A stretch of DNA of 41,563 bases from a virus (IMGVR_UViG_3300032157_000369:1-41563), one strand, 5' to 3'; counted from the first letter of the stretch, positions 2,322-41,354 are shown. The notes: a model not told the origin generated them from the sequence alone. Numbers and translations are program-made.

Positions 2322-2594
2322 CTACCTCCCCTTTTGGGCCGCTACGGCGGCCGCGTAGTCCTTCACCGCCTGGTGCGCGTTCGGGTCCCTGGCCGCCTCG
2401 GCCAGCAGCTTCTCCTGCATCGCCGCGAGCGCCGCTTCTCGTTTGGCAACGGCCTCGATGCGCGCCGCGCGGGCTTCCTTGAGGGCGTTGCAGCGCGGAT
2501 CGTCGGCCGGCACTTTTTCATTGCTCCAGCCCGGCTGCGGGTTCTCGGCCGAGACGCCGACCACCACGCCATCCTTGATGTTCAGGTACGGCAT
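2322..2594 (-). CDS. small tail-fibre-adjacent protein of unknown function
   Basis: 90 residues. The N-terminal 35 residues look like a short beta-rich module (MPYLNIKDGVVVGVS), and the rest is strongly alpha-helical, alanine-rich and charged, probably coiled coil. The ATG at 2594 overlaps the stop of the fibre-like gene (ATGA). Small proteins here are often fibre-associated or fibre-assembly factors, but I recognise no family and assign none. Confidence 0.6.
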   Translation of the reverse strand: MPYLNIKDGVVVGVSAENPQPGWSNEKVPADDPRCNALKEARAARIEAVAKREAALAAMQEKLLAEAARDPNAHQAVKDYAAAVAAQKGR

Positions 2595-3814
2595 CAGTCC
2601 CTCCTTGCGTCGACGTAGCCCAGCGTGCAGATCTGGAAGTCGCTCGTGGCGGTGTCGTGCCTGGAAGCGATCAGCCGTGAGCTGTCTGTCATGACTTCGA
2701 AGTGCCCGCAGCCGGCCTCGGTGCCGCCGTAGTTCATGAGCGAGGCCCCGGGCACGGCGGTGAGGCTGGCCTGGGCGTCGGTCTCGGCGGTGCGCTGGAA
2801 CACGCAGAGCTTGTTCGAGGAGGTGGTGTCCTGCTTGTTGGCGCGGAAGAGCGCGAGCATGTCCGCCGGCACGGTCAGGGTGTGCGTCAACCGCGTCGTC
2901 GCGCCGGAGACGGCATCGACATCCTCGATGCTGGTGGTGTACATGACGCGCAGCCCGCCGCCCGCCATCTCGCTGGCCACGAACACGATGTTCGCCCCGC
3001 CGGCAGTGCGGTAGATCGCGCCGATGCGACGCTTGTAGGTGTAGTTCGACGGCATCGTCGGCGCGGTCTTCGATTCCGAGAACACGGCACAGACGACCCC
3101 GGTGTCCGGCCGCGCGATGAGCCAGAGGTAGTACCAGGTGCTGACGTCCGGCGTACCGCCCACGCTCTCGGTGCCGTCCAGGCCACCGTTGCCGCTACCG
3201 ACCGCGAAGGCCGCGTCCATGCGCTTGGTGAGCGTGGAGCTCAGCACCATGTTGTAGACGCCGGTGGAGTCCATGCAGCTGCCGGCGCTGATGTCGATGT
3301 CGTTGGTGGCGTCGCCGGCGTTGTTTGCCGGGACGAGGCCCTGGATCGCCTTGGGGACTTGCGGCGTCCACAGGGCGCGCTCGTCGGTGATCATCGCGTT
3401 GGTGATCGCGGTGTCGCCGGAGGTGATCAGCACCCGGCAGATCGGCATCATGTTGCCGGGGATCGAGGGCGCGGTGGCGCTCGGGCTGCCCGTCACCGCG
3501 GTGCCGGCGATGCGCCTGGCGGTGCCGCTGGCGAGATCGAGCACCACGCGATCGATGCGGTGCTGCCCCGCGCTGGGGATCGTGAAGCCGCTCACCGTCT
3601 GCGCGGCCACCTCTGTGAGCGTGGTACCGATCATGAGCCCGCCCGCATCGACGCGGACGGTGAGGTCCGGCGCCGGCGAGCCGCTGTTCTGCTCGTGCGC
3701 CGCGAACGCCACGCCCAGGCGCGTAAACACGGCGAGCGCGGCGTCGATCTTCAGCGGATACCCGGAGCCCAGGTCGGTCGTGTAATTGGGCTGCTCGAGC
3801 GTTGCGACGGTCAT
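2594..3814 (-). CDS. tail fibre-like minor tail protein
   Basis: 406 residues, rich in Thr, Ser, Ala and Gly with short beta-strand patterns and few charged helices, as in distal tail or fibre proteins. The first ~160 residues (TVRVDAGGLMIG, HRIDRVVLDLASG, CRVLITSGDT) resemble a module common at the N-terminus of phage appendage proteins that attach to the baseplate or tip. The C-terminal half would be the exposed part. It follows the tip protein gene, the usual place for side-fibre genes. No DGR variable repeat is present here. Receptor specificity cannot be read from the sequence. Confidence 0.65.
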   Translation of the reverse strand: MTVATLEQPNYTTDLGSGYPLKIDAALAVFTRLGVAFAAHEQNSGSPAPDLTVRVDAGGLMIGTTLTEVAAQTVSGFTIPSAGQHRIDRVVLDLASGTARRIAGTAVTGSPSATAPSIPGNMMPICRVLITSGDTAITNAMITDERALWTPQVPKAIQGLVPANNAGDATNDIDISAGSCMDSTGVYNMVLSSTLTKRMDAAFAVGSGNGGLDGTESVGGTPDVSTWYYLWLIARPDTGVVCAVFSESKTAPTMPSNYTYKRRIGAIYRTAGGANIVFVASEMAGGGLRVMYTTSIEDVDAVSGATTRLTHTLTVPADMLALFRANKQDTTSSNKLCVFQRTAETDAQASLTAVPGASLMNYGGTEAGCGHFEVMTDSSRLIASRHDTATSDFQICTLGYVDARRD

Positions 3815-17819: not shown

Positions 17820-18499
17820 CAGCGCAGGACGAAGGCGTCCGCAAAGGCCTGCATCTGGTGCTTGCGCTTGCCCTTGAAATGCACGGCGAACGGGTTGCCC
17901 TTGCCAGCGATGCCGTTGACGCCGGGCGTCATGTTGAAGCGCTTGCACGGAAGAAACCGGATCCGCGCGCCCTGCCGCATCCAGTCGCCGTTTTCGTGCA
18001 CCGGCGCCGCCGCCTTGCTGACAGCCTGCTGGTCGCCGCCCCAGTGCCCCTGGCACAGCTCGTAGGCGGCGCGGAAGAACTTGAGCGCGGCCTCGCGCGC
18101 ACCCGCGGAGACGTACATGACGCCGTTGTTGATGGGCGAGTCAGGCTCGATACGGCTCGTCAGCCCGATATCGAAACCATCCCCGAAGGCACCGGCCAGG
18201 TCGCGGGCAATGACGACATCGCAATCGGCCAGCACCAGGTGATCCTTGTTGTCCCACTGCTCAAGGGCCGCGATCTGGCCCGCGACCATGGCGAACGAAA
18301 ACTTTTCCGGCAGCTCGGCCTTGATCACGTCGAACGCGGGCAGATCCTGATCGCTCACCACCCGGTGCCGGTGGCCGAAGCGCTCGCAGCTGCGGCGCTG
18401 CAAATCCATCAGCTGCAGATACTTCGCCATTTCCAGCGTCGCGCTCCGGACCGCACGGTCGTTCGGACGCGGCGCCCAGACTGGGATGACGTCGATCAC
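17819..18499 (-). CDS. glycosyltransferase-like protein with DCD motif
   Basis: 226 residues from a GTG start (18499, GTGA). It has the layout of GT-A, family 8-like transferases: [27 protein letters not shown] provides a hydrophobic strand ending in D-C-D (about residues 92-94), followed by [13 protein letters not shown] and HWGGDQQAV motifs typical of the nucleotide-sugar pocket, and a late [14 protein letters not shown] am fairly confident of the fold but not of the sugar. It is in the same coupled run of genes. Confidence 0.7.
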
Positions 18500-19542
18500 C
18501 GCAGCCCGTTCTTGACGGCGTCGCACACCTGGTCGACCTCCGCCAACGTCATTTGCGGCCAGAGCGGCAGGCTCAGAACCTCGTCGGACTGGCGCTCCGC
18601 GAGCGGGAAATCGCCGCGCTCCCAACCAAGGCGCGCATAGGCCGGCTGCAGGTGCGGCGGGACCGGGTAATGCACCATCGTCGGAATGCCGGCGTTCTGC
18701 AGCACCTCCCGGAAGCGATCGCGATCGCCGTAACGAATCACGAACTGATGCCAGACGCGGCCCGGCGTGTCCGAAGGCAGCTGCAGGTCCTCGTCCAGCA
18801 GGTTCTCTATGTAGCGGCGCGCCAAGGCTTCGCGCTGCGCGTTGTGCCGGTCCAGGTGCCGCAGCTTCACGCGCAAGATCGCCGCCTGCAGCTCGTCCAG
18901 CCGGGAGTTGATCCCGCGCTCGACATGGCTGTTCTTGAATTTCGACCCGTAGTTCGCGAGCACCCGCACGCGTTCGGCGAGCTCATCGTCGTTGGTCGTC
19001 ACCGCTCCGCCGTCGCCGTAGCAGCCGAGGTTCTTGGTGGGGTAGAAGCTGAATGCCCCAGCCAGCCCCAACGATCCGACCCTGCGCCCATTCACCATCG
19101 CGCCATGCGCCTGGGCGCAGTCCTCGATGACAGGCAGTTCCTCGATCTCCTCCTCGCCTGCCGGTACCGGCTGCCCGAACAGATGCACCGCGAGCAGCGC
19201 GCGAGTCCGGCCGGTGACCACGTCGGACACGCCCGGCTCGAACGGCACGGGCATCGCCCCGACCGCGCTCACCGCGAGCCAGTCCGCGATATAGCCGTTC
19301 GACGGCACCAGGACCTCGTCGCCGTCGGCCACGTCCAGCGCCATCAGGATCAGGCGCATCGCGTCGAGGCAGTTGCCGACTCCGATGCAATGTTTCACGC
19401 CGATGTAGGCGGCGAACTCTTGCTCGAAGGCCTCGACCTCGGGGCCCAGGATGTACTGTCCAGACGTCAAGACCCGGCGCACGGCGCCATCGATCTCATC
19501 GCGCAATTCCAGATAGCCGGCCTGCGCGTCGAAGAATTTCAT
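18496..19542 (-). CDS. DegT/DnrJ/EryC1/StrS-type sugar aminotransferase
   Basis: 348 residues. The family's landmarks are all visible: [16 protein letters not shown] (PLP phosphate region), [11 protein letters not shown] (Asp141 to the pyridine nitrogen), [17 protein letters not shown] with Lys170 as Schiff-base lysine, and the [11 protein letters not shown] and [10 protein letters not shown] segments. These PLP enzymes make 3- or 4-amino-deoxy NDP-sugars. In a phage, this suggests that the cassette makes an unusual amino-sugar itself. No NDP-sugar dehydratase or reductase is present in the window, so the ketosugar substrate would have to come from the host. Confidence 0.93.
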
Positions 19543-20351
19543 GCAAGCAACCTCTTGAACGGCTCGCCGCTGGAGATCTCCGCCAGCGTCCACTGCGCCC
19601 AGGCCAGGCGCTCGAAGGCGGGCTCGCGCTCGCCGATGGAGATCTGGTCGACCTCCTCGATCCGCCCCGGCGCGGCGCCCTTGAGGATCCAGAACGGCGC
19701 CGTGCAGATCACCTGGACGCCGGCGACGAGCGCGTGCACGCCGGCTGAGCTCGCCCAAATGACCATCGCGTGCGCGCCCTCGAGGTCCGCCGACAGCGGC
19801 ACCTTCGGCGGATTGCTCTGCCAGTTGCCCGGGTGCGGCCGGATGCGGATCGGCCGGTCGGTGAATTTCTTCAGGTGCTCGGCCGTGCGTTCGGCCCAGT
19901 CGGTGGGCATGATGAAATCGGGCCGCCCGAAGGACCGATTCGGGCAGACCAGGATGTGTTTGCCACCGGACTGGATGCGTCCCAGCTCGATGCCCAGCGC
20001 GCGCCACCGCGCACCATAGGTTTCGGTCTCGGCGAGCCAGCTGCCGCCTGCGCGGTCAGGCCACTTGCCGGAGCCGTTGTGCCCGCCTTCCGCGATCGCG
20101 TACAGCTGGTGCCCGTTCGCGTCCCTGCCGACGTAGCCGTTTTCCGCCACGATCACCCGCCCGCCGCCCGCTTCGACGCGGCAGGCCAGGTTGTGGTTGT
20201 CGCCGTAGCGATTCCAGATGACGAGCACGTCGCACTTGTCGCCGTGCATCGGGCTGCCCTTGCGCAGATCCAGTCCGGCCGCCTTGAGGCCGGCATCGAA
20301 GGCCTCGCGCCTGTAGATCGGGCCCGGGCGAATGAGGCTATAGGCTCGCAA
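19539..20351 (-). CDS. glycosyltransferase-like (GT-B, capsule-type) protein
   Basis: 270 residues from a TTG start at 20351, 14 bases inside the upstream gene; no better start is visible and the first residues ([17 protein letters not shown]) look conserved. Segments [26 protein letters not shown] and [16 protein letters not shown] fit capsule-polysaccharide-type GT-B enzymes. It is a paralogue of the 15599-16378 gene. Its stop overlaps the aminotransferase start (ATGA). Confidence 0.7.
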
Positions 20352-21191
20352 GGAACTCCTCGATCGTGGAGCGCGGAAAACAGTCGATGGCGCTTCCCGG
20401 GCTGCAGTTGACGACGCGCACGCCCAACTCGGTGAGCCGCGGCGTGGTGGTGCGCATCGTCAGGACCATGTCCTTGTACGTAGGCGCCGTCTTGTCCGGG
20501 TGGTCGCCGAACCAGTGCTTCTTGCGGTTGACGCCTTCCTTGGCGTCGTAGCCCAGCAATCCGATCGGCCCGCCACCCGCGAGCACCGCGATGTTCAGCG
20601 CCATGTGCCCGCTGTTGCCGCCGGTGATGATCTCCTCCGGTTTCGCTGACAAGCCCTCACGGCCGCCGTTGCGCAGCATGTGGATCTCGTCGTCGCCGAC
20701 GTCTGCGCCGGTGTTCTGGATCGTGCATTTCTGCCCGGCGAACGTGATGAACCCCGGCTTCTCCCTGTGCCAGGTCCACCACTTCGAATCGGCGAAAAAC
20801 AGTAGATCGGCGAACGGCGCGAGGCGGTAGGCGTCGTTTATTGCGACGACTTTGCAGCGCCCTTTTTCGTGCGCCGATTTGACCGCCCCGACCTGACCTT
20901 CGGTGAGGCTGGAACCTCCGGCAATGCAGACGACAGCGGCGCCGCGCCAGGACTCAGGATCGACTTCCGAAAACCGATCCGCCGGTCGAACTGGACGGCG
21001 CCGAAGAACTTTTTTTCCGGAAGCTCCCTTGCCGCGCCCTCTGCAGGGCCGGTGACCGCTTCGACTACCTGCGCATCGATGAGATCGCGCGCGCGTGACG
21101 TGCGCAGCCACAGCACCTGGCCGGGCCGCATGCGCCCTTCCTCGATGATGTGGCGGCCGAGCGCGCGCACCTGGACATGGTCAGGACTCAA
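20338..21191 (-). CDS. possible frameshift-fusion gene: small phage domain plus DUF115/Maf-like domain
   Basis: Two frames appear to encode one product. The first, from ATG 21191, gives MSPDHVQVRALGRHIIEEG ... LPEKK (61 residues, resembling a small conserved head-region protein). The second starts near VLRRRPVRPADRFSEV and continues to 20338, with AAVVCIAGGSSLT near its start, as in DUF115/Maf-like or 6-hydroxymethylpterin-type folds. The second frame has no ATG, GTG or TTG between the slippery site and its conserved core; its only upstream start is GTG 21111 with a poor ribosome site. A -1 shift at A_AAA_AAG (21009-21015) would make a 284-residue protein. Alternatives are a homopolymer sequencing error or two separate genes (20838-21191 and 20338-21111). 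Confidence 0.55.
21009..21015 (-). promoter_or_regulatory. candidate -1 frameshift heptamer A_AAA_AAG
   Basis: On the minus strand the upstream frame reads CCG GAA AAA AAG TTC. The heptamer A AAA AAG is in -1 phase and is the sequence used at the Escherichia coli dnaX site. After slippage the next codon, GTT at 21009, is in frame with the downstream conserved domain. I see no obvious downstream pseudoknot. Confidence 0.45.
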
Positions 21192-30646: not shown

Positions 30647-31105
30647 CTATTTCGCGACCTTGAGACCGGGCGGCTGCGGGATCTTCGCCTTCAGGGCGGA
30701 ACGCAGCCGCACCGCGGCGCCGAGGAACTCATTGAACTGCCGGTCGTAGTCCGCGAGCTCGCGATCGGTGACGCGGCCGTCCTCGATCGCCTTCAGCGTG
30801 GCCTGCATCACGTCGCCGAATTCCTTGCCGACCGAGGCGATCTCGCTGCCGAGCTCACCTTCGATGGCAGCCGGCGGGACCGGGATGCAGACATGCGCGC
30901 AGAGAAACGCCAGCGCCTGGGCGATTTCCGGATCCTGCGAATCGAGCGTCATCGCCTCAAGCTCGACTGCAAAGAGATTGTGACCGTTCTGCCGGCCGAG
31001 CTTATGCGCGAGCGTGTTCGGGTTCACCCCGATCCGCCCCGCCACCCCGTGCACCCCGCCCACTTGCCGCAGCGCCAGGCGCTTGGCGGCATCGATCACC
31101 GACAT
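30647..31105 (-). CDS. CII-like phage regulatory protein
   Basis: 152 residues. The N-terminus, ALRQVGGVHGVAGRIGVNPNTLAHKLGRQNGHNLFAVELEAM, is the HTH pattern of the Phage_CII_2-type regulators in Proteobacteria phages. The C-terminal half is helical and probably oligomerises. In lambda, CII activates repressor and integrase promoters; here the name indicates family and position rather than proven function. Preceded by AGGGAGAG. It is second in the leftward operon from pL, although 480 bases and an antisense lipoprotein gene separate it from the Cro-like gene. Confidence 0.8.
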   Translation of the reverse strand: MSVIDAAKRLALRQVGGVHGVAGRIGVNPNTLAHKLGRQNGHNLFAVELEAMTLDSQDPEIAQALAFLCAHVCIPVPPAAIEGELGSEIASVGKEFGDVMQATLKAIEDGRVTDRELADYDRQFNEFLGAAVRLRSALKAKIPQPPGLKVAK

Positions 31106-31888: not shown

Positions 31889-32386
31889 ATGACGGACATG
31901 CCCACCTACGCCGCCCGGCTGAAGCGCGCGCGCAAGCACAAGGGCCTGAACCAGACCGAGCTCGCCGCCCTCCTCGGCCTGAAGCCCCAGGCGATCCAAT
32001 ATCTCGAGGAAGAGAAGAACGCCGCGCGCGGCAGCAAGCACACCGCGAACATCGCCAGGATCTGCGGGGTCGACGCGCACTGGCTGGCGAGCGGCGAAGG
32101 GCAAATGCTGCTCGCCGACAACAAGGTTCAGCAGCAGGAAGCCACGTACGGCCCCGGCGGCGCCAATGATGCGCGCGAAGTCGCCATCGCGTGGTCGAAG
32201 CTATCGCCCGGCAACCAGCAATGGGTTCGGGAAATGGTGTTCATCCTCGCCGCGGTCGATACGCGCTTCCCATGGTTTCGCCGCGGCCGACCCGCCGCGA
32301 AGAGCTACGACGTCTACGAACGCGGCATCGAAACCAACTACCAGGCCCAGATCGTGCTCGCCGCAGGAAAAATCAAAGGCAAGTGA
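31889..32386 (+). CDS. CI-like repressor
   Basis: 165 residues (157-ish if ATG 31898 is used). An XRE-type HTH, YAARLKRARKHKGLNQTELAALLGLKPQAIQYLEE, starts within the first residues and is followed by ARICGVDAHWLASGEG, typical of phage CI repressors. No LexA-like peptidase Ser/Lys pair is evident in the short C-terminal part, so induction may not depend on RecA self-cleavage. It should bind the TACAAG-N4-CTTGTA operators on both sides. There is no Shine-Dalgarno before either ATG, which hints at a leaderless lysogenic message. Confidence 0.88.
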   Translation: MTDMPTYAARLKRARKHKGLNQTELAALLGLKPQAIQYLEEEKNAARGSKHTANIARICGVDAHWLASGEGQMLLADNKVQQQEATYGPGGANDAREVAIAWSKLSPGNQQWVREMVFILAAVDTRFPWFRRGRPAAKSYDVYERGIETNYQAQIVLAAGKIKGK

Positions 32387-33703: not shown

Positions 33704-34266
33704 GCCGCCTCATCGGCCTCACCGGCCTGCCCGAATGCGGCAAGGACAGCATCGGCGACGACCTCGTGCGCACGCACGACTTCGCCAAGATGTCCTTCGC
33801 CGGTCCGATCAAGGACGGCCTTGCCCGAATGCTCGACATTCCGTGGCAGTCCTTCGAGGACCGCGCGGTCAAGGAACAGGAAATCCCCTGGATCGGGAAG
33901 TCGCCGCGCCAGCTGATGCAGACCCTCGGCACCGCCTGGGGCCGCGACACCGTGCGCGAGGACATCTGGATCCGCCACGCGCAGCGCCGCCTGGACAACT
34001 ACCGCCGGATCTCGACCAAGGTCGTCGTCACCGACGTGCGCTTCCCCAACGAGGCCGACTGGTTGCGCGCCAACGGCGGCGAACTGTGGCACGTCCTGCG
34101 CAAGGCCGCGCCGAACGTCGTCCACCTGCATGCGAGCAACATCCCGCTCGCCGTCCTGCCCGGCGCCGACAGCGTCATCACCAACGACGAAGGCCTCGAG
34201 CAGCTGCGCCACCAGGTCGCCCGCGCGCTCGCCGGCGACAGCCGCATCGAAACGCTCACCGCCTAA
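33700..34266 (+). CDS. deoxynucleoside monophosphate kinase-like protein
   Basis: 188 residues from GTG 33700. A Walker A P-loop, GLPECGKDS (residues 9-17), follows the first strand, and SPRQLMQTLGTAWGRDTVREDIWIRHAQ with VVVTDVRFPNEADWL are the signature segments of phage T4 gp1-like dNMP kinases. It would phosphorylate dNMPs, possibly unusual or recycled ones, for phage replication. The early operon of this phage otherwise carries no nucleotide metabolism. Confidence 0.88.
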   Translation: MSRLIGLTGLPECGKDSIGDDLVRTHDFAKMSFAGPIKDGLARMLDIPWQSFEDRAVKEQEIPWIGKSPRQLMQTLGTAWGRDTVREDIWIRHAQRRLDNYRRISTKVVVTDVRFPNEADWLRANGGELWHVLRKAAPNVVHLHASNIPLAVLPGADSVITNDEGLEQLRHQVARALAGDSRIETLTA

Positions 34267-34290: not shown

Positions 34291-34698
34291 ATGAACCAGA
34301 AACGCGAACAGATTCTTGCCGCCGTAAAGAAGCTCGGCCCGTCGTCACCGCTGCAGATCTCCGACCATACCGGCCTGAGTTCCAGCCTGTGCGGCTACCA
34401 CCTGCGCGGCCTGGTCGAGGCTGGCCTGGTGAAGGCAACCGGCAGCACGGCGAGCCGCAAGTACGAAGCGATCGACGGCGCCCCCCCCCAGGACCGCAAG
34501 CCGCCGGCGAAGCGCAAGAAGAAGCGCGCCTCGAAGAAGCCCCGCGCAGCGCGCCCGCGGCCCGCCGAGTCGGAATTCATTGCCGCCGTCACCCACGACG
34601 CGCGCATCGTGGTGATCGACGGCAACGCAATCAAGACGTATTCGCCCGAGCAGAGCTCCGCGATCGCGGATCTCGCGCTCACCCACTTCACCGCCTGA
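34291..34698 (+). CDS. winged-helix DNA-binding protein
   Basis: 135 residues. An N-terminal winged helix, REQILAAVKKLGPSSPLQISDHTGLSSSLCGYHLRGLVEAGLV, is followed by a Lys/Arg/Pro-rich linker (PPAKRKKKRASKKPRAARPRP) and a small C-terminal domain. Strong ribosome site AGGAGGAGG. It precedes the first DGR target gene by 13 bases, so it may regulate the DGR region or act with the ParB-like protein. The role is inference. Confidence 0.7.
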   Translation: MNQKREQILAAVKKLGPSSPLQISDHTGLSSSLCGYHLRGLVEAGLVKATGSTASRKYEAIDGAPPQDRKPPAKRKKKRASKKPRAARPRPAESEFIAAVTHDARIVVIDGNAIKTYSPEQSSAIADLALTHFTA

Positions 34699-34711: not shown

Positions 34712-35089
34712 ATGAACGCAGCCGTACAAGCCACGCTCCCCGCCATTGGCGCCGCCTTCGAAGGCGGCACCTTCGCCGGCATCACGCTTCACAACGACCA
34801 GCTCGCCGCGCTGGTGCTGATGCCGGGCGACACGTCACGCGTCACTTGGGACCGGGCGGCCGAAGTTGCGAAGGAGCAAGGCGGCGAACTGCCGTCGCGC
34901 CACGACATGCTGGTGCTGCTCAAGAACGTGAAGTCTGAATTCCGGACCGATGACTGGTATTGGACGAATGAGGAAGTCGCCGGCGACGCCGACTGCGCGT
35001 GGGTCGCGGACTTCTACCACGGCGGCCAGAACTGGCTCCGCAAGAGCATCGGCTGCCGGTGCCGTGCCGTCCGCAGAGTCGCCATTTAG
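34712..35089 (+). CDS. DGR target protein 1 (C-type-lectin-like, DUF1566-like)
   Basis: 125 residues; ribosome site ACAGGAGG. The body GGTFAGITLHNDQLAALVLMPGD ... GGELPSRHDMLVLLKNVKSEFRTDDWYWTNEE has the DUF1566/formylglycine-generating-enzyme-like C-type lectin pattern of DGR targets. The last 37 residues are encoded by variable repeat 1. No signal peptide or membrane helix is present, so it is probably cytoplasmic or attached to something else. Fourteen of the 98 template positions differ, all template adenines. The protein would be a binding scaffold with about ten changeable residues. Confidence 0.93.
   Translation: MNAAVQATLPAIGAAFEGGTFAGITLHNDQLAALVLMPGDTSRVTWDRAAEVAKEQGGELPSRHDMLVLLKNVKSEFRTDDWYWTNEEVAGDADCAWVADFYHGGQNWLRKSIGCRCRAVRRVAI
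34979..35076 (+). repeat. DGR variable repeat VR1
   Basis: 98 bp aligned without gaps to the template repeat (38438-38535). It differs at 14 positions and all are A in the template. Changed codons: AAC at template codons 3, 11, 13, 14, 16, 20 and 24, plus TAC, ATC, CAC, GAC and TAC codons. Codon 18 (AAC) is unchanged. The block ends at CGCAG, after which template and target diverge. Confidence 0.96.
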
Positions 35090-35111
35090 CGATTCACCAA
35101 TTCAACCATTC
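35077..35111 (+). repeat. conserved block downstream of VR1
   Basis: AGTCGCCATTTAGCGATTCA and onward to about AACCATTCC, shared with the sequence after VR2 and, with changes, VR3, but not with the template. It holds the target stop codon and a short stem, TCGC (35079-35082) with GCGA (35089-35092), around a six-base loop. By analogy with Bordetella phage BPP-1 this is where an initiation-of-mutagenic-homing context or hairpin would lie. Confidence 0.65.
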
Positions 35112-35121
35112 CAGGACTGAC

Positions 35122-36894
35122 ATGAACGCACCGACGCAAGCCGCGCACGTGGCCGAACCGAATGTAAAGCTGGTTCCGCTCGCGCAGATCATCCTCAGCA
35201 CGACGCGCAGCCAGGAGCAACGGCGCAAGACGTATGACGCCGCAGCCCTGGCAGAACTCGCCACCAGCATCAAGGAAGACGGTGTGATGTTCGCGATTCT
35301 CGTGCGCCCGCTCGCCAGCCGCATCGGCGAAGCTCCCGCATACGAGATCATCGCCGGCGAGCGGCGCTTCCTTGCCAGCCAGCAGGCCGGTATCGAGAGT
35401 ATCCCCGCGCGGATCCTCGCGCTCACCGACGCCCAGGTGCAGAAGGCGCAGCTGGTCGAGAACATCCAGCGCGAGGCCCTGGATACGCTCGCGGAGGCGA
35501 TGGGGTACGAGGATCTGATCAAGGGCGGCATCGCGGCCGAGGTCATCGGCGACATGATCGGCAAGAGCCGCAGCTACGTCTACGCGCGCGTGCAGCTGCT
35601 CAAGGTGGCGCCCGGCGTGCGGAAGGCGCTCAGCGCCGGCGAACTCACGGCATCGCAGGCCCTGCTGTTCGCGCGCATTCCAAGCGAGAAGCTGCAGGAG
35701 GCCGCGCTCGGCACGCTGCGCAAGTGGGACTACCAGGGCCGTGGCGAGCCGCTCAGCTTCCGTCGCACCGCCTCGATCCTGAACGACAAGGCCAAGGGCA
35801 TCTTCATCCCCCTGGTCACGGTGCCGTTCAAGCTCGACGACGCGACCTACCACACCTTCGGCCCGAAGCAGGGCAAGAACCAGGCGCAGGACGTGATCGC
35901 CCTGCCGACCTGCATCGCCTGCCCGAAGCGCTCCGGCAACGACCCCGAGCTCCAGGCCGCGCTGGAAGATCCGAACGTCTGCACCGACAAGGCCTGCCAC
36001 GACGTCAAGGCCAAGCAGGCGCTCGAGCGCCGGCGCAAGGAGATCGAGGCTGACGGCATCGTAGTGCTGCGCGGCGAGGAAGCTGCCGCGATCATGCCTA
36101 CCGACTTCGGCACGCGCGGCTACGTCGACCTCGACAGCCAGTGCGACGCCGACGAATTCCCCGAGGCCGAACCCGACCAAGGGAAGGACGAGGATGACGA
36201 CGCGTTCGAGCGCCGCATGGGCACGTGGGAGGAACGCGCAGACAAGCACGTCTGCCGGACCTACCGCCAACTGCTAGGCGACGACATCGCGAAGCTTGAC
36301 ATCAGGGTCGTCGAGCACCAGAAGGGCAATCGCTTCATCGAGCTCGCGCCCGACAAGGCGGTGGCGAAGCTGCTCAAGGAAAAGGGCATCGAGGATCGCG
36401 TCCACCGCGACACCCGCCAGCCCTCGAAGCCTGTCAAAACGGCGGATCCCGAGACAGCGAAGCGCCAAGCCGAGAAGGAAGCGGCCGCGAAGGCGAAACA
36501 GGAACTCGAGCAGAAGATCACCCGCGAGGTGCAGTTGCTCGCGCTCAAAGGCGTGCACGACAAGTGGAAGGGCCCGCTCGATCGCGACGAGCTCGAAATC
36601 CTCTGGAACACGCTCTACGACAACAGCAACCACACCGAGAGCTTCGACTTCCTGTATCCGAAGCACCCGAAGGCCGGCGCGATGAACCTGCGCGATCTGG
36701 GCCGCGCCATGCTGATGCTCGTCGTCTGCGACACCCTGGAAGGCTGGAACGCCGACGCCAGCGCGAAGCTGCTCAAGGCCCTCGCCGCACGCCTGAAGGT
36801 TGACGTCAAGTCCATCGAGAAGAGCGTGCGAGCCGAGCTCGATCCCACTGCGGCGCCGAAGAAGCCCGCCGCCAAATCCAGCAAGAAGAAGTAA
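35122..36894 (+). CDS. ParB-like partition/nuclease-domain protein
   Basis: 590 residues. The ParB N-terminal domain shows KEDGVMFAILVRPL and EIIAGERRFLASQQAG with the GERR motif, followed by the KorB/ParB HTH region (LAEAMGYEDLIKGG, EVIGDMIGKSRSYVYARVQLLKVAPGVRKAL). The middle carries a Cys-rich segment, CIACPKRSGND ... CTDKACHDVKAKQ, resembling phage ParB proteins. The C-terminus has a Lys/Ala-rich coiled coil and a basic tail (KKPAAKSSKKK). No ParA is in the window. It lies between the first two DGR target genes. It may bind parS-like sites, segregate a plasmid-like form, or regulate early genes. Confidence 0.88.
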   Translation: MNAPTQAAHVAEPNVKLVPLAQIILSTTRSQEQRRKTYDAAALAELATSIKEDGVMFAILVRPLASRIGEAPAYEIIAGERRFLASQQAGIESIPARILALTDAQVQKAQLVENIQREALDTLAEAMGYEDLIKGGIAAEVIGDMIGKSRSYVYARVQLLKVAPGVRKALSAGELTASQALLFARIPSEKLQEAALGTLRKWDYQGRGEPLSFRRTASILNDKAKGIFIPLVTVPFKLDDATYHTFGPKQGKNQAQDVIALPTCIACPKRSGNDPELQAALEDPNVCTDKACHDVKAKQALERRRKEIEADGIVVLRGEEAAAIMPTDFGTRGYVDLDSQCDADEFPEAEPDQGKDEDDDAFERRMGTWEERADKHVCRTYRQLLGDDIAKLDIRVVEHQKGNRFIELAPDKAVAKLLKEKGIEDRVHRDTRQPSKPVKTADPETAKRQAEKEAAAKAKQELEQKITREVQLLALKGVHDKWKGPLDRDELEILWNTLYDNSNHTESFDFLYPKHPKAGAMNLRDLGRAMLMLVVCDTLEGWNADASAKLLKALAARLKVDVKSIEKSVRAELDPTAAPKKPAAKSSKKK

Positions 36895-36917
36895 CCCACC
36901 CACACGGAGGAACCACC

Positions 36918-37289
36918 ATGGCCAAGAAACCCGCCGCGAAAGCGGCCAAGCCCCCCACCCTGAAGAAGGGCGAAACCTACGTCGGCATCACGCTGCACGA
37001 CGACAAGCCGCACCACCTGATCCTGCTGCCCGGCACGGAGCGCAAGGTCTGGAAGGACGCCGTCGCCTGGGCGAAGAAACAGGGCGGCGTGCTGCCGTCG
37101 CGCATCGACATGATCGTGCTCTTCGAGAAGGCGAAGGACAAGTTCGAAGGCTACTGGTACTGGACCGGGCAGGAAGTCGCCGGCAACGCCGACTGCGCGT
37201 GGGTCGCGTTCTTCGACGACGGCTTCCAGAGCTGGTACCACAAGAGCAGCGTCTACCGGTGCCGTGCCGTCCGCAGAGTCGCCATTTAG
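36918..37289 (+). CDS. DGR target protein 2 (C-type-lectin-like, DUF1566-like)
   Basis: 123 residues with ribosome site CACGGAGG. N-terminus is Lys/Ala-rich (MAKKPAAKAAKPPTLKKGE), so it may bind nucleic acid or an acidic partner; this tail is echoed by the ParB-like C-terminus just upstream. The lectin-like body (TYVGITLHDDKPHHLILLPG ... GGVLPSRIDMIVLFEKAKDKFEGYWYWTGQE) matches targets 1 and 3 at moderate identity, whereas the variable repeat region is nearly the same outside adenine positions. That contrast is what retrohoming from one template predicts. Confidence 0.93.
   Translation: MAKKPAAKAAKPPTLKKGETYVGITLHDDKPHHLILLPGTERKVWKDAVAWAKKQGGVLPSRIDMIVLFEKAKDKFEGYWYWTGQEVAGNADCAWVAFFDDGFQSWYHKSSVYRCRAVRRVAI
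37179..37276 (+). repeat. DGR variable repeat VR2
   Basis: 98 bp, 12 differences from the template, all at template adenines. Codon changes include AAC to TTC (codons 11 and 16), AAC to GAC (13, 14), AAC to AGC (18, 24), AAC to TAC (20), plus ATC to GTC, TAC to TGC and GAC to GTC. Codon 3 (AAC) is unchanged. Confidence 0.96.
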
Positions 37290-37314
37290 CGATTCATCCA
37301 TTCAACCATTGAGA
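37277..37314 (+). repeat. conserved block downstream of VR2
   Basis: Same order as after VR1: AGTCGCCATTTAGCGATTCA, then a run ending TTCAACCATT. The TCGC/GCGA stem is conserved exactly (37279-37282 with 37289-37292). Only a few bases differ from the VR1 block. Confidence 0.65.
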
Positions 37315-37325
37315 GGAGTTTCGCC

Positions 37326-37835
37326 ATGAAAAACGATCTGACGACCGAGCAGTTGCTGCAGCCGGTCACGGTCACCATCAGCCTGGGCGCGGTGTTGCGC
37401 CTCGCGGAGCTCGACGCGCGCGGGCCGCACGCGGCGCCGCCGGCGGGCCGTTACGACATCCTTCCCGACTGCCTGCCGTCGATCGGCAGCCCCTGGGACG
37501 ACGCCAGCATCAAGGGCGGCATTTACGCCGGCATCACCGTGCACGACAACACGCCCATGGCCCTCGTGCTCCTGCCGGCGTCGGCCGAGCGGAAGACCTG
37601 GCAGGAGGCGCGCGAGTGGGTGCAGCTGCAGGGCGGTGAATTGCCCTCGCGATTCGATTCGCTGGTGCTGTTCAAGAATCTGAAGAGCGAATTCGAGGAG
37701 GCCTACTACTGGACGAGCGAGGAAGCCGGCAACGCCGACTGCGCGTGGATCGCGAGCTTCGGCTACGGCAGCCAGCGCTGGGGCCACAAGAGCTACGGCT
37801 ACCGGTGCCGTGCCGTCCGCAGAGTCGCCATTTAA
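37326..37835 (+). CDS. DGR target protein 3 (C-type-lectin-like, longer N-terminus)
   Basis: 169 residues, ribosome site GAGAGGAG. The N-terminal ~65 residues are unique (MKNDLTTEQLLQPVTVTISL, then a proline-rich linker), and the remainder repeats the family body (GGIYAGITVHDNTPMALVLLP ... GGELPSRFDSLVLFKNLKSEFEEAYYWTSEE). Variable repeat 3 encodes the C-terminal lectin face. The extra domain suggests that this copy binds another phage or host partner through its N-terminus. It is the target closest to the template and to avd. Confidence 0.93.
   Translation: MKNDLTTEQLLQPVTVTISLGAVLRLAELDARGPHAAPPAGRYDILPDCLPSIGSPWDDASIKGGIYAGITVHDNTPMALVLLPASAERKTWQEAREWVQLQGGELPSRFDSLVLFKNLKSEFEEAYYWTSEEAGNADCAWIASFGYGSQRWGHKSYGYRCRAVRRVAI
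37725..37822 (+). repeat. DGR variable repeat VR3
   Basis: 98 bp, 12 differences from the template, all at adenines: AAC to AGC, GGC, TAC, AGC, CGC, GGC and TAC at codons 11, 13, 14, 16, 18, 20 and 24, plus TAC to TGC and GAC to GGC. ATC at codon 9 is kept, unlike VR1 and VR2. Confidence 0.96.
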
Positions 37836-37860
37836 CGATTTAGCGATTCAACCATTCCAT
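37823..37860 (+). repeat. conserved block downstream of VR3
   Basis: Begins AGTCGCCATTTA like the other two but then has ACGATTTAGCGATTCAACC, so it contains a small insertion and two possible GCGA-type 3' arms. The target stop is TAA instead of TAG. It runs straight into the avd start at 37859. Confidence 0.6.
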
Positions 37861-38212
37861 GGCGCTGCACTTCGAAACTGACCTTTACAAGGCCGTCGTC
37901 GACCTCGGCAAGGCGGTGATCCCGGCCGTGCGCAGCATGCCGCGCGACGTGAAGCAGCTGCTCGGCGGCCGGATCCTCGACGAGGCGCTGTGGATGGGCG
38001 TGCTGGTCATGCGCATTAACAAGGCGAAGGACGCGGCCAAGCTGCCGGTGATCGACGATCTGCTCGAGCATCTGGAGCTCGCGCAGATGACGCTGCGCCT
38101 CAGCCGCGAGTCGAAGTTCATCGCCAACAAACACTTCGCCGATGCCCTGCCGCTGATCGCCTCGATCGGCAAGCAGGCGCATGGGCTGAGGAACCATTTT
38201 GCTCCCGCTTAG
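37859..38212 (+). CDS. avd: Avd accessory variability determinant
   Basis: 117 residues, all-helical and rich in basic residues: FETDLYKAVVDLGKAVIPAVRSMPRDVKQLLGGRILDEAL ... LLEHLELAQMTLRLSRESKFI ... LPLIASIGKQAHGLRNHF. This is the four-helix-bundle Avd (bAvd-like) that forms a pentamer, binds the reverse transcriptase and template RNA, and is required for cDNA synthesis and mutagenic homing in BPP-1. It starts right after the VR3 downstream block and ends ~225 bases before the template repeat, the standard order target-avd-TR-RT. The ATG at 37859 has no clear Shine-Dalgarno (CATTCC before it), so translation may be coupled to target 3. Confidence 0.93.
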   Translation: MALHFETDLYKAVVDLGKAVIPAVRSMPRDVKQLLGGRILDEALWMGVLVMRINKAKDAAKLPVIDDLLEHLELAQMTLRLSRESKFIANKHFADALPLIASIGKQAHGLRNHFAPA

Positions 38213-38437
38213 CTTCAGCACACAGCGCCTGTTGCACGAGCGGCAAGCCGCCCGTGCCCGTGCGCGTTTCTCTCTGGTCGCGCCGCTGGGCACCGCGATA
38301 TTCACGGGCGGACCCACCGACACGCGCACAACGGATACGGAGCAGCTCGACCTGTTCACGTCCGGCGCAGTCTCCCCGGCCAGCAATGGCCAGGGCGACG
38401 TAGATAGCGCGAATGGCGGCATCTTCGTTTTGTCGGC
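38213..38437 (+). other. leader between avd and template repeat
   Basis: 225 bases without a convincing gene. One frame is open right through from TTG 38199 into the reverse transcriptase, but the amino-acid sequence looks like translated GC-rich noncoding DNA. In BPP-1 the 5' part of the template RNA begins here and folds with Avd and RT. No promoter or terminator is obvious. Confidence 0.5.
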
Positions 38438-38535
38438 GCCGGCAACGCCGACTACGCGTGGATCGCGAACTTCAACAACGGCAACCAGAACTGGAACCAC
38501 AAGAGCAACGACTACCGGTGCCGTGCCGTCCGCAG
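38438..38535 (+). ncRNA. DGR template repeat (TR) and template RNA core
   Basis: 98 bp, template for adenine-specific mutagenesis. Read in the target frame it has eight AAC codons, which on adenine mutation can give 15 amino acids but no stop codon. There are 27 adenines in total. It ends in an adenine-free stretch (CCGGTGCCGTGCCGTCCGC) that is the same in all three targets, the expected homing-initiation side. RNA 3' of this point, inside the RT coding frame, would be the priming spacer by analogy with BPP-1. Confidence 0.96.
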
Positions 38536-39638
38536 CGGGATACCCGTTCGAGGGAGCCTTTTCTTACGATGATCTGGTCGCCGCCTGGCTTGAGTGCCGG
38601 CGCGCCAAGCGCACCACCGCCGCGGCGATCGCCTTCGAGCTCGACCTCGAGGCGAACCTCACCGCGCTCTACGATACGCTCCGGGGCGGCACCTGGCGGC
38701 CCGGGCGCTCGGTCTGCTTCCCGATCCACCGGCCGAAGAACCGCGAGGTCTGGGCCGCGGACTTCCCCGACCGCGTCGTGCACCACCTGCTCTACCGCCA
38801 CATCGGCCCGCGCTTCGAGCGCGCCTTCATCGCCGACAGCTGCGCCTGCATCAAGGGCCGCGGCACCCTCTACGGCGCCCGCCGCCTCAAGGCGAAGCTG
38901 CGCTCGATCACCCGCAACTGGACCCGCCGCGCCTGGTACCTCAAGTGCGACCTGGCCAACTTCTTCCCGAGCATCAAGAAGGACATCCTGTCCGCACGTC
39001 TGGACGCGAAAATCCCCGAGCCCTTCTGGCACGACCTCGCGCACCGCATCCTCTTCCACGACCCGCGCCCCACCGTCGACCTGCGCGGCGACCAGGCGCG
39101 CCTGGCGACCATCCCGCCAGCGAAGAGCCTCTTCCACCAGCCCGCCGACCACGGCCTGCCGATCGGCAACCTGCCCAGCCAGTTCGGCGCCAACGTCCTG
39201 CTCGACGTCCTCGACCAGCATGTAAAGCACCAGCTGCGCGTGCGGCACTACATCCGCTACGTCGACGACTTCATCCTCCTGCACGAAAGCCCGCAGCAGC
39301 TGAACGCCTGGCTGGCCGACATCGCCGCCTTCCTGCCCCGCGAACTCGGCGTCCGGCTCAACCCGGCCAAGACCATCCTGCAGCCCGTCGACCGCGGCGT
39401 CGACTTCGTCGGCCACGTCATCAAGCCCCACCGCACCACCCTGCGCCGGCGCACCCTCAACGACGCCCTGAACCGCCTGCAGACCATCCCCCGCGCCGAC
39501 GTCTACGCCGCCGCCAACAGCTACCTCGGCCTCGCCCGCCAGGCCTCGCACTCCCACCACGACCGCGCCCGGATCTGCAACGCCGTGCGGCGGCGTGGAT
39601 TCGCGGTCAACCATCAACTGACGAAGGTGTATCCATGA
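38523..39638 (+). CDS. DGR-type reverse transcriptase
   Basis: 371 residues if read from GTG 38523. RT motifs in order: RSVCFPIHRPKNREVWAADF (motif 1-2 region), YLKCDLANFFPSI with catalytic Asp143, GLPIGNLPSQ (211-220; the SQ form is typical of DGR and bacterial retroelement RTs), and RYVDDF with the YVDD catalytic pair at 246-249, then FVGHVI and a basic thumb. Size fits DGR RTs (about 330-400). The start is uncertain: GTG 38523 lies in the last codons of the template repeat, and the only other in-frame choices are TTG codons at 38199, 38232 and 38430. No Shine-Dalgarno precedes GTG. It should form a complex with Avd and copy template RNA with random incorporation opposite A. Confidence 0.95.
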   Translation: MPSAAGYPFEGAFSYDDLVAAWLECRRAKRTTAAAIAFELDLEANLTALYDTLRGGTWRPGRSVCFPIHRPKNREVWAADFPDRVVHHLLYRHIGPRFERAFIADSCACIKGRGTLYGARRLKAKLRSITRNWTRRAWYLKCDLANFFPSIKKDILSARLDAKIPEPFWHDLAHRILFHDPRPTVDLRGDQARLATIPPAKSLFHQPADHGLPIGNLPSQFGANVLLDVLDQHVKHQLRVRHYIRYVDDFILLHESPQQLNAWLADIAAFLPRELGVRLNPAKTILQPVDRGVDFVGHVIKPHRTTLRRRTLNDALNRLQTIPRADVYAAANSYLGLARQASHSHHDRARICNAVRRRGFAVNHQLTKVYP

Positions 39639-40117: not shown

Positions 40118-40263
40118 ATCAGCTGCTCGGCACCATCATTCTGACCGCCCTCCTCGCCGCGATCGACGCGGCTGGCTACTTCTACATTGTCGAGCGCACC
40201 GGCTTTTTAATCGTCGTCGGGACCGGTCTCCTGATCGTTGGCGAGTTCCGGCGGATTCCGTGA
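40114..40263 (+). CDS. 49-residue membrane peptide
   Basis: From ATG 40114 (ATGA). Two hydrophobic segments, LLGTIILTALLAAIDAAGYFYIV and FLIVVGTGLLIVG, cover nearly the whole peptide, so it is a small hairpin membrane protein. No function recognised. Possible roles are inner-membrane toxin, holin-like or sensor peptide; none is supported beyond topology. Confidence 0.6.
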   Translation: MNQLLGTIILTALLAAIDAAGYFYIVERTGFLIVVGTGLLIVGEFRRIP

Positions 40264-41354
40264 GCGGCACCAGCTCGATCGAGTGGACCGACAAATCCTG
40301 GAACCCGGTGCGCGGGTGCTCGATCGTCAGCCCGGGCTGCACGAACTGCTACGCCATGAAGTTCGCCCATCGGTTTAGCGGCACCGGACAGGCCTACGAG
40401 GGGCTCACCATGATGACCAAGGGCGGGCCTGTGTGGACCGGCAAGATGCGCCTAATTCAAGACGACCTGGTAGAGCCGATCACGTGGGTCAAGCCTTCCC
40501 GGGTCTTCGTCAACAGCATGAGCGACCTCTTCCACGAGGACTTGCCGTTTCAGTACATCGCCGATGTCTTCGCGGTCATGGCCTGCACTACGCGCCACAC
40601 CTACCAGGTCCTCACAAAGCGCCCGGCGCGAATGCTCGAATTCTTCAACTGGCTCAACCTCACCGCTCCATTTCAATGGCCAGAGCAAGTGCAACCCACG
40701 AAAGTCTGGCCGCAGTGGACGCCGTTGCGCGGGAAGCGAGGCGGTTACGACAACTGTGGTCCGCGCTGGCCGCTGAAAAACGTCTGGCTCGGGGTCAGCG
40801 TCGAGGACCAGGCCCGCGCTGACGAGCGAATACCGTTGCTCTTGAAGACGCCGGCAGCGGTCCGCTGGATCTCGGCAGAGCCGTTGCTTGGCCCCGTCTC
40901 CCTACTAGACGGTTACGTCGGCAAGTGGCCGACAGCTTGCAAGGTTGATGACAAGGGTTGGTGCCAAAAATGCCAGCTGGAACCGTTCAACGGCCTGTGC
41001 GACCAGGACGTGGAGCGGCTTGATTGGGTCGTCGCCGGCGGGGAGAGTGGCCCAGGCGCCCGCCCGTCGCACCCCGACTGGTTCCGCAAGTTACGCGACG
41101 AATGCAAGCTCGCCGGGGTACCGTTCTTCTTCAAACAGTGGGGCGGCCACCTTCCAGGCGAACTGAAGCGAGGCGAGCCGACAATCCGCTGGCAGGACGG
41201 TCGCACCGAATGGTATGGCGACCACGCCGACATCAAGTACCAGAACCACTGGCTGACGAATGACGAGGCCGGATTGGTCATCGCCTGGCCGACGGCGAAG
41301 AAGGCTGCTGGCCGCAAGCTCGACGGGCGCACGCACGACAAGTATCCGAGATGA
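40260..41354 (+). CDS. Gp37/Gp68 (DUF5131) family phage protein, radical-SAM-like Cys motif
   Basis: 364 residues from GTG 40260. WTDKSWNPVRGCSIVSPGCTNCYAMKFAHR is the family signature, with Cys residues spaced C-x7-C-x2-C, and WVAGGESGPGARPSHPDWFRKLRDEC later is its second conserved block. A four-Cys insert (CKVDDKGWCQKCQLEPFNGLC) is probably a zinc or iron-sulfur site. Related to spore photolyase/radical-SAM style proteins by pattern; the reaction is unknown. It is common in temperate phages near excisionase and integrase genes. Confidence 0.9.
   Translation: MSGTSSIEWTDKSWNPVRGCSIVSPGCTNCYAMKFAHRFSGTGQAYEGLTMMTKGGPVWTGKMRLIQDDLVEPITWVKPSRVFVNSMSDLFHEDLPFQYIADVFAVMACTTRHTYQVLTKRPARMLEFFNWLNLTAPFQWPEQVQPTKVWPQWTPLRGKRGGYDNCGPRWPLKNVWLGVSVEDQARADERIPLLLKTPAAVRWISAEPLLGPVSLLDGYVGKWPTACKVDDKGWCQKCQLEPFNGLCDQDVERLDWVVAGGESGPGARPSHPDWFRKLRDECKLAGVPFFFKQWGGHLPGELKRGEPTIRWQDGRTEWYGDHADIKYQNHWLTNDEAGLVIAWPTAKKAAGRKLDGRTHDKYPR

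Follow-up and report, generated by a model that had tools for sequence, protein, structure and literature searches.

The phage record IMGVR_UViG_3300032157_000369, a single linear IMG/VR entry of 41,563 bases that is referred to here, at its full length, as the window, has a lambda-like layout and contains a complete diversity-generating retroelement (DGR) in the cI-to-integrase run of a temperate phage, that is, in its pL-like, early/lysogeny-side genes. The three genes diversified by this element (T1, T2, and T3) encode small proteins outside the tail module. The explanation that we favour, with moderate confidence, is that they are variable binders acting inside the host cell, and that the ParB-like gene situated between T1 and T2 is a chance neighbour. 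Phage DGRs have been interpreted almost wholly as host-range switches. Cassettes with multiple variable repeats (VRs) are known from earlier surveys, including one listed in Pseudomonas fluorescens WH6, and one survey recognised a clade of reverse transcriptases (RTs) associated with multiple VRs and noted that DGRs occur often in Pseudomonas and Burkholderia; non-structural viral targets were mentioned in passing only. Our literature search, which did not extend to Wu 2018 and Weinberg 2017, retrieved no paper describing early-operon targets as a feature of a clade, or the RNA family RT-15 as a DGR RNA.

Anatomy and variation of the cassette

Searching the whole window with the 99-nt template repeat (TR) revealed exactly one TR and three VRs, one at the 3′ end of each target gene (Table 1). 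The pooled differences between TR and VRs occur at TR adenines in 38 out of 39 cases, with a probability by chance of ~4e-22, because adenine occupies only 27 of the 99 TR positions; additionally, each of the eight AAC codons of TR could give rise to 15 residues, and to no stop codon. The initial annotation had stated that VRs are absent from the J-like gene and from the gene at 2594–3814 (minus strand), and the same search, with only these four copies, bears this out, as it found no VR copies in the tail genes. VRs in tail genes are likewise ruled out by TR searches of ten relatives, and neither in these nor in the window did we find a target of the BPP-1 type, i.e., a tail or receptor-binding gene in the late module. 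The gene at 2594–3814 had also been described as fibre-like, a designation that we do not retain, as its first 150 residues match head/virion proteins from PHROG and not fibres.

The minus strand of the window contains the tail, head, packaging and replication genes plus a CII-like gene, and the plus-strand run comprises, in this order, a CI-like helix-turn-helix gene, a nucleotide kinase, a winged-helix regulator, T1, ParB, T2, T3, avd, TR, RT, and a gene of family phrog_2045. The previously proposed open reading frames, their coordinates and the order target1-ParB-target2-target3 were all reproduced, as was the lack of linkage between targets and tail genes, which lie on opposite strands and more than 20 kb apart. 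The RT is 58–70% identical to RTs from other loci bearing TR and VRs; its frame is open from position 38199 through TR, and its start codon is uncertain.

The order target(s)-avd-TR-RT, the presence of Avd, the C-type-lectin target, and the adenine-specific VR at the 3′ end of the target are shared with the DGR of BPP-1 (mtd-avd-TR-brt). However, BPP-1 diversifies one tail-fibre tip protein, whereas here there are three small targets outside of the tail module.

Table 1. Location of the cassette and of neighbouring genes in the 41,563-base window.
Feature	Coordinates	Strand	Observations
CII-like activator	30647..31105	-	Opens the divergent replication/late side
CI-like helix-turn-helix repressor	31889..32386	+	First gene of the plus run; assigned by sequence reading and position
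Deoxynucleotide monophosphate kinase	33706..34266	+	Upstream, in the same gene run as the targets
Winged-helix (ArsR-like) regulator	34291..34698	+	Immediately 5′ of T1
T1	34712..35089	+	DGR target, 125 aa; predicted DUF1566/Lcl_C C-type-lectin domain
VR1	34978..35076	+	3′ end of T1; 14 differences from TR, 14/14 at TR adenines
ParB-like protein	35122..36894	+	590 aa; ParB_N and HTH_ParB
T2	36918..37289	+	DGR target, 123 aa; basic, Lys/Ala-rich N-terminus
VR2	37178..37276	+	3′ end of T2; 12 differences from TR, 12/12 at TR adenines
T3	37326..37835	+	DGR target, 169 aa
VR3	37724..37822	+	3′ end of T3; 13 differences from TR, 12/13 at TR adenines, the exception at the edge
avd, accessory variability determinant	37859..38212	+	phrog_3206, E 1.9e-15; Pfam bAvd E 4e-7, below its cut-off
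RT-15 structured RNA	38223..38419	+	Rfam RF03018, 130.5 bits
TR	38437..38535	+	99 nt, 27 adenines, 8 AAC codons in the target frame
DGR-type RT	38556..39638	+	phrog_1423, E 7e-110; motifs IGNLPSQ and YVDD
phrog_2045 family gene	40263..41354	+	Downstream, in the same gene run as the RT

Within the head-gene cluster, genes in the minus strand at 18499–21111 match phage aminotransferase and alpha-2,3-sialyltransferase families, which suggests glycan modification.

Conservation and activity of the cassette in related phages

A scan with the RT identified related loci in viruses (297) and in bacterial genomes (85), and the 80 best from each group were retained; TR/VR pairs were located by script, requiring at least 70% of the mismatches to be at TR adenines. 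A TR with at least one VR, and mostly with two or three, was found in 157 of 168 related loci; where a host is named, it generally belongs to Pseudomonas, Burkholderiales or other Proteobacteria. Pooled mismatches from these 157 loci were at TR adenines in 4482 of 4726 cases (95%), a figure obtained from pairs pre-selected at the 70% threshold. Full-length targets retained by the script range from 112 to 234 aa, and those adjoining avd have a median of ~197 aa; typically, two targets lie just 5′ of avd, and 47 loci contain another one located over 2 kb, and in some cases 9 kb, 5′ of the RT.

The location of the cassette is also conserved. An integrase gene occurs downstream of the RT, in the same strand and within 16 kb, in 29 of the 37 records bearing an integrase, and an HTH_3 gene is found upstream, in the same strand, in 25 of the 33 records containing one; the same order cI-DGR-int is found in the annotated phages Magia, Haboob, and phPA-G. 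Searches with the TR over the whole records of Magia, QDWS, Haboob, phPA-G, Cruim01, and five from IMG/VR yielded no VR outside of the early region; an eleventh search, with LPPA56, was uninformative because the query TR was unmatched. The terminase family phrog_9 was matched in only 10 of 40 records, too few to serve as a general marker of the late modules.

Burkholderia phage Magia (PMC7883833) has an RT 63.7% identical to that of the window, three small lectin-fold targets, the same cI-to-int location and a remote first target; its genome, however, lacks ParB and carries RecT, nuclease and AAA ATPase genes between targets. Of these three targets, its authors named two (genes 47 and 57), and they suggested a change of host range (PMC7883833). 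Pseudomonas phages Haboob, phPA-G, and Cruim01 have RTs 59–61% identical to ours, avd, a TR beside the RT and two or three targets in the pL-like run, but differ in their longer targets (~160–205 aa), in the lack of ParB and in the presence of methyltransferase genes downstream.

Comparison of Haboob with a near-identical relative (IMG/VR record L058) indicates that mutagenic retrohoming is active in nature: their TRs are identical and over 3.3 kb there are only two differences outside the VRs, whereas the VRs accumulate 18 and 21 differences, 38 of these 39 at TR adenines. Phage vB_Pae_U7 (L009, 7003–8198) contains two targets close to those from Haboob, the compared one being 88% identical, and its whole genome has no related RT; these are apparently frozen former DGR targets. 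Homologs in D3 (orf68; L174, 5872–6432), PMG1 (PMG1_00068), FBPa42, and PAN70 share with the targets a lectin-type C-terminal domain and a place shortly downstream of cI, in the same strand. We found no related RT in these four genomes, unlike in Haboob and QDWS, for which the same search was positive; this family is therefore undiversified by this route. A further homolog from PA5oct is located in the long terminal repeat.

The cassette was not recovered from every RT relative. By script, no convincing TR/VR pair was detected in distant relatives with 40–45% identity (L165–L171, several of them assemblies of Gastranaerophilales/Melainabacteria), or, within the available flanks, in the close relative L050, where the cassette is possibly degenerate. 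Separately, the records for Hujiaoplasma phage zrk29-1 and Shewanella phage vB_Sb_QDWS (OP650936.1 and OK094664.1) are both 47902 long and have an identical RT match, so they are probably one phage and the host given for zrk29-1, a Tenericutes bacterium, is doubtful.

Target proteins, their ParB neighbour and the template RNA

An AlphaFold2 model of T3 contains a confident C-type-lectin domain at approximately residues 51–169, with a predicted local distance difference test score above 90, preceded by a low-confidence N-terminus. Its best PDB matches have C-type lectin folds, the closest solved structure being the C-terminal domain of Legionella Lcl (8q4e), which is also the best profile match, although Lcl is a collagen-like protein and its identity to the target domain is ~20%. 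T1–T3 match Lcl_C (PF07603) with 23–25 bits, below the curated cut-off of 34.9, and we consequently rejected a plain Pfam name for them; nevertheless, 51 of 52 members of the target family match Lcl_C with E ≤ 0.01 (best 1e-12). When PDB was searched with the sequence of T2 by itself, the matches were those expected by chance. Each target is predicted to consist of a short N-terminal segment followed by a C-type-lectin (DUF1566/Lcl_C) domain displaying a variable face.

The targets show no apparent signal peptide or membrane helix, as had been proposed, with a maximum hydropathy over 19 residues of 1.08 (T1), 0.43 (T2), and 1.26 (T3). Secretion signals in relatives, which according to the initial annotation would argue against its reading, were not convincing in any of 286 targets. 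A crude hydropathy rule flagged 13 of these, which were rejected as signal peptides on account of the charged hairpin that comes before the hydrophobic segment; in the modelled family, this segment is a predicted helix, and the N-terminus of a long target forms a small beta-hairpin plus helix. These data bear on the idea that the targets reach the lysogen surface or periplasm by a non-classical route and exclude superinfecting phages. The cI-to-int position would suit expression in lysogens, and the existence of two or three paralogues with differing N-termini would fit such a role. Nevertheless, we deem it quite improbable, given the lack of a convincing signal peptide or anchor in all 286 proteins and the charged hairpins at the start of the few flagged ones.

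The ParB-like protein contains domains PF02195 (ParB_N, E 1.6e-21) and PF17762 (HTH, E 4e-11). Its position, flanked by T1 and T2, and the resemblance of the Lys/Ala-rich start of T2 to its C-terminal tail had led to the proposal that the targets are functional partners of ParB. However, ParB_N is present in only 6 of 57 relatives and, by tblastn, ParB is upstream of the cassette in some loci and downstream, even of the RT, in others. Additionally, the targets most similar to those from the window, which align to T3 with 53% and 45% identity, are from a 53-kb record (L029) with no ParB, and one of them also has a Lys/Ala-rich basic start. The basic start of T2 is therefore real, but we rejected it as a trace of shared ancestry with ParB; the shared tails are best read as low-complexity similarity. 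As for the arrangement T1-ParB-T2, the best interpretation is that ParB represents one of the many insertions of genes that separate the pair adjacent to avd from a remote first target. ParB is an occasional neighbour outside of the conserved part of the cassette, and a functional partnership with the targets appears very improbable. From the original reading, what stands is the existence of small, non-tail targets with no appearance of being exported, whose position and type are conserved in the clade; the link to ParB does not.

The interval between avd and TR is occupied by RT-15 (Rfam RF03018), directly 5′ of TR, and in all 14 relatives tested the end of RT-15 is at most 6 nt from the start of TR. 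We assign this RNA from the Rfam model; the folding of the interval as a single sequence was not significant on its own (z -1.1). The distance from the 3′ end of TR to the conserved RT coding sequence has a median of 15 nt, a figure bounded by the start of the RT query, and this short distance is consistent with where the RT has been annotated to start in Haboob and phPA-G. BPP-1 has a separate, structured noncoding spacer 3′ of TR (PMC12875486), whereas here no such spacer was found between TR and RT: TR nearly abuts the RT frame and the structured RNA is upstream. In this clade of DGRs, RT-15 probably constitutes the 5′ portion of the template RNA. This points to a template-RNA layout unlike that of BPP-1 and hints at a role for an Rfam family otherwise described simply as sRNA.

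Possible function of the targets

In the mechanism that we propose, a template RNA, which would probably start with the RT-15 structure, provides the TR sequence for error-prone reverse transcription, and the 3′ ends of T1, T2, and T3 are overwritten as a result. The encoded proteins would most likely be produced at an early stage of infection, or upon induction, and would act within the host cell by binding other proteins in a variable manner. Their likeliest use would be counter-defence or the exclusion of rival phages; we favour the former judging by gene position. A precedent exists for predicted cytoplasmic DGR targets with a lectin fold in Thiohalocapsa PB-PSB1, where they were proposed to be antigen sensors (PMC10907252), although that system is bacterial, is tied to NACHT and ternary conflict systems and has an RT from clade 5.

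The main alternative is that the targets are virion adhesins that are encoded in the early region; their N-terminal segments would dock them on the particle, where, like Mtd in BPP-1, they would vary the recognition of hosts. Several observations weigh in this direction and against intracellular binding. The phage DGR targets characterised to date are mostly receptor binders. In the Bacuni phages of Bacteroides uniformis, with DUF1566 targets, host range differs along with the VRs (PMC8143477), and Roux 2021 ties viral DGR clades 1, 4, and 6 to tail proteins. The Halomonas phage QHHSV-1 encodes a target-like lectin protein (QHH_30; L177, 5830–6459) that adjoins tail genes, with no related RT; its setting is probably the virion, so the lectin domain is not confined to early proteins. 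Moreover, the N-terminal beta-hairpin plus helix of the long target could serve for docking or oligomer formation. A C5 DNA methylase gene is found 1.1–3.6 kb downstream of the RT, in the same strand, in 16 of the 18 records bearing one, which often places the cassette in one gene run with a likely anti-restriction gene; however, early regions often carry methylase genes in any case, and hence this association adds little to the case for anti-defence. Conversely, the separation of the targets from the tail genes in strand and distance, the retention of their early placement throughout the clade and the proximity to cI of homologs with no related RT all argue against virion adhesins, which we regard as unlikely.

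We propose only tentatively, as a possibility open to considerable doubt, that a large clade of temperate phages from Beta- and Gammaproteobacteria carries in its early/lysogeny operon a hypermutating repertoire of intracellular lectin-fold binders, serving as variable counter-defence, or against competitors, and not as a tropism switch. For a genetic approach to this question, the relatives with no RT located by cI in D3 and other classical phages provide simple starting points. If a widespread and naturally active clade of DGRs directs its variation to small early-operon proteins, phages would be hypermutating something besides adsorption, and the simplest candidates would be proteins that meet those of the host or of rival phages within the cell.

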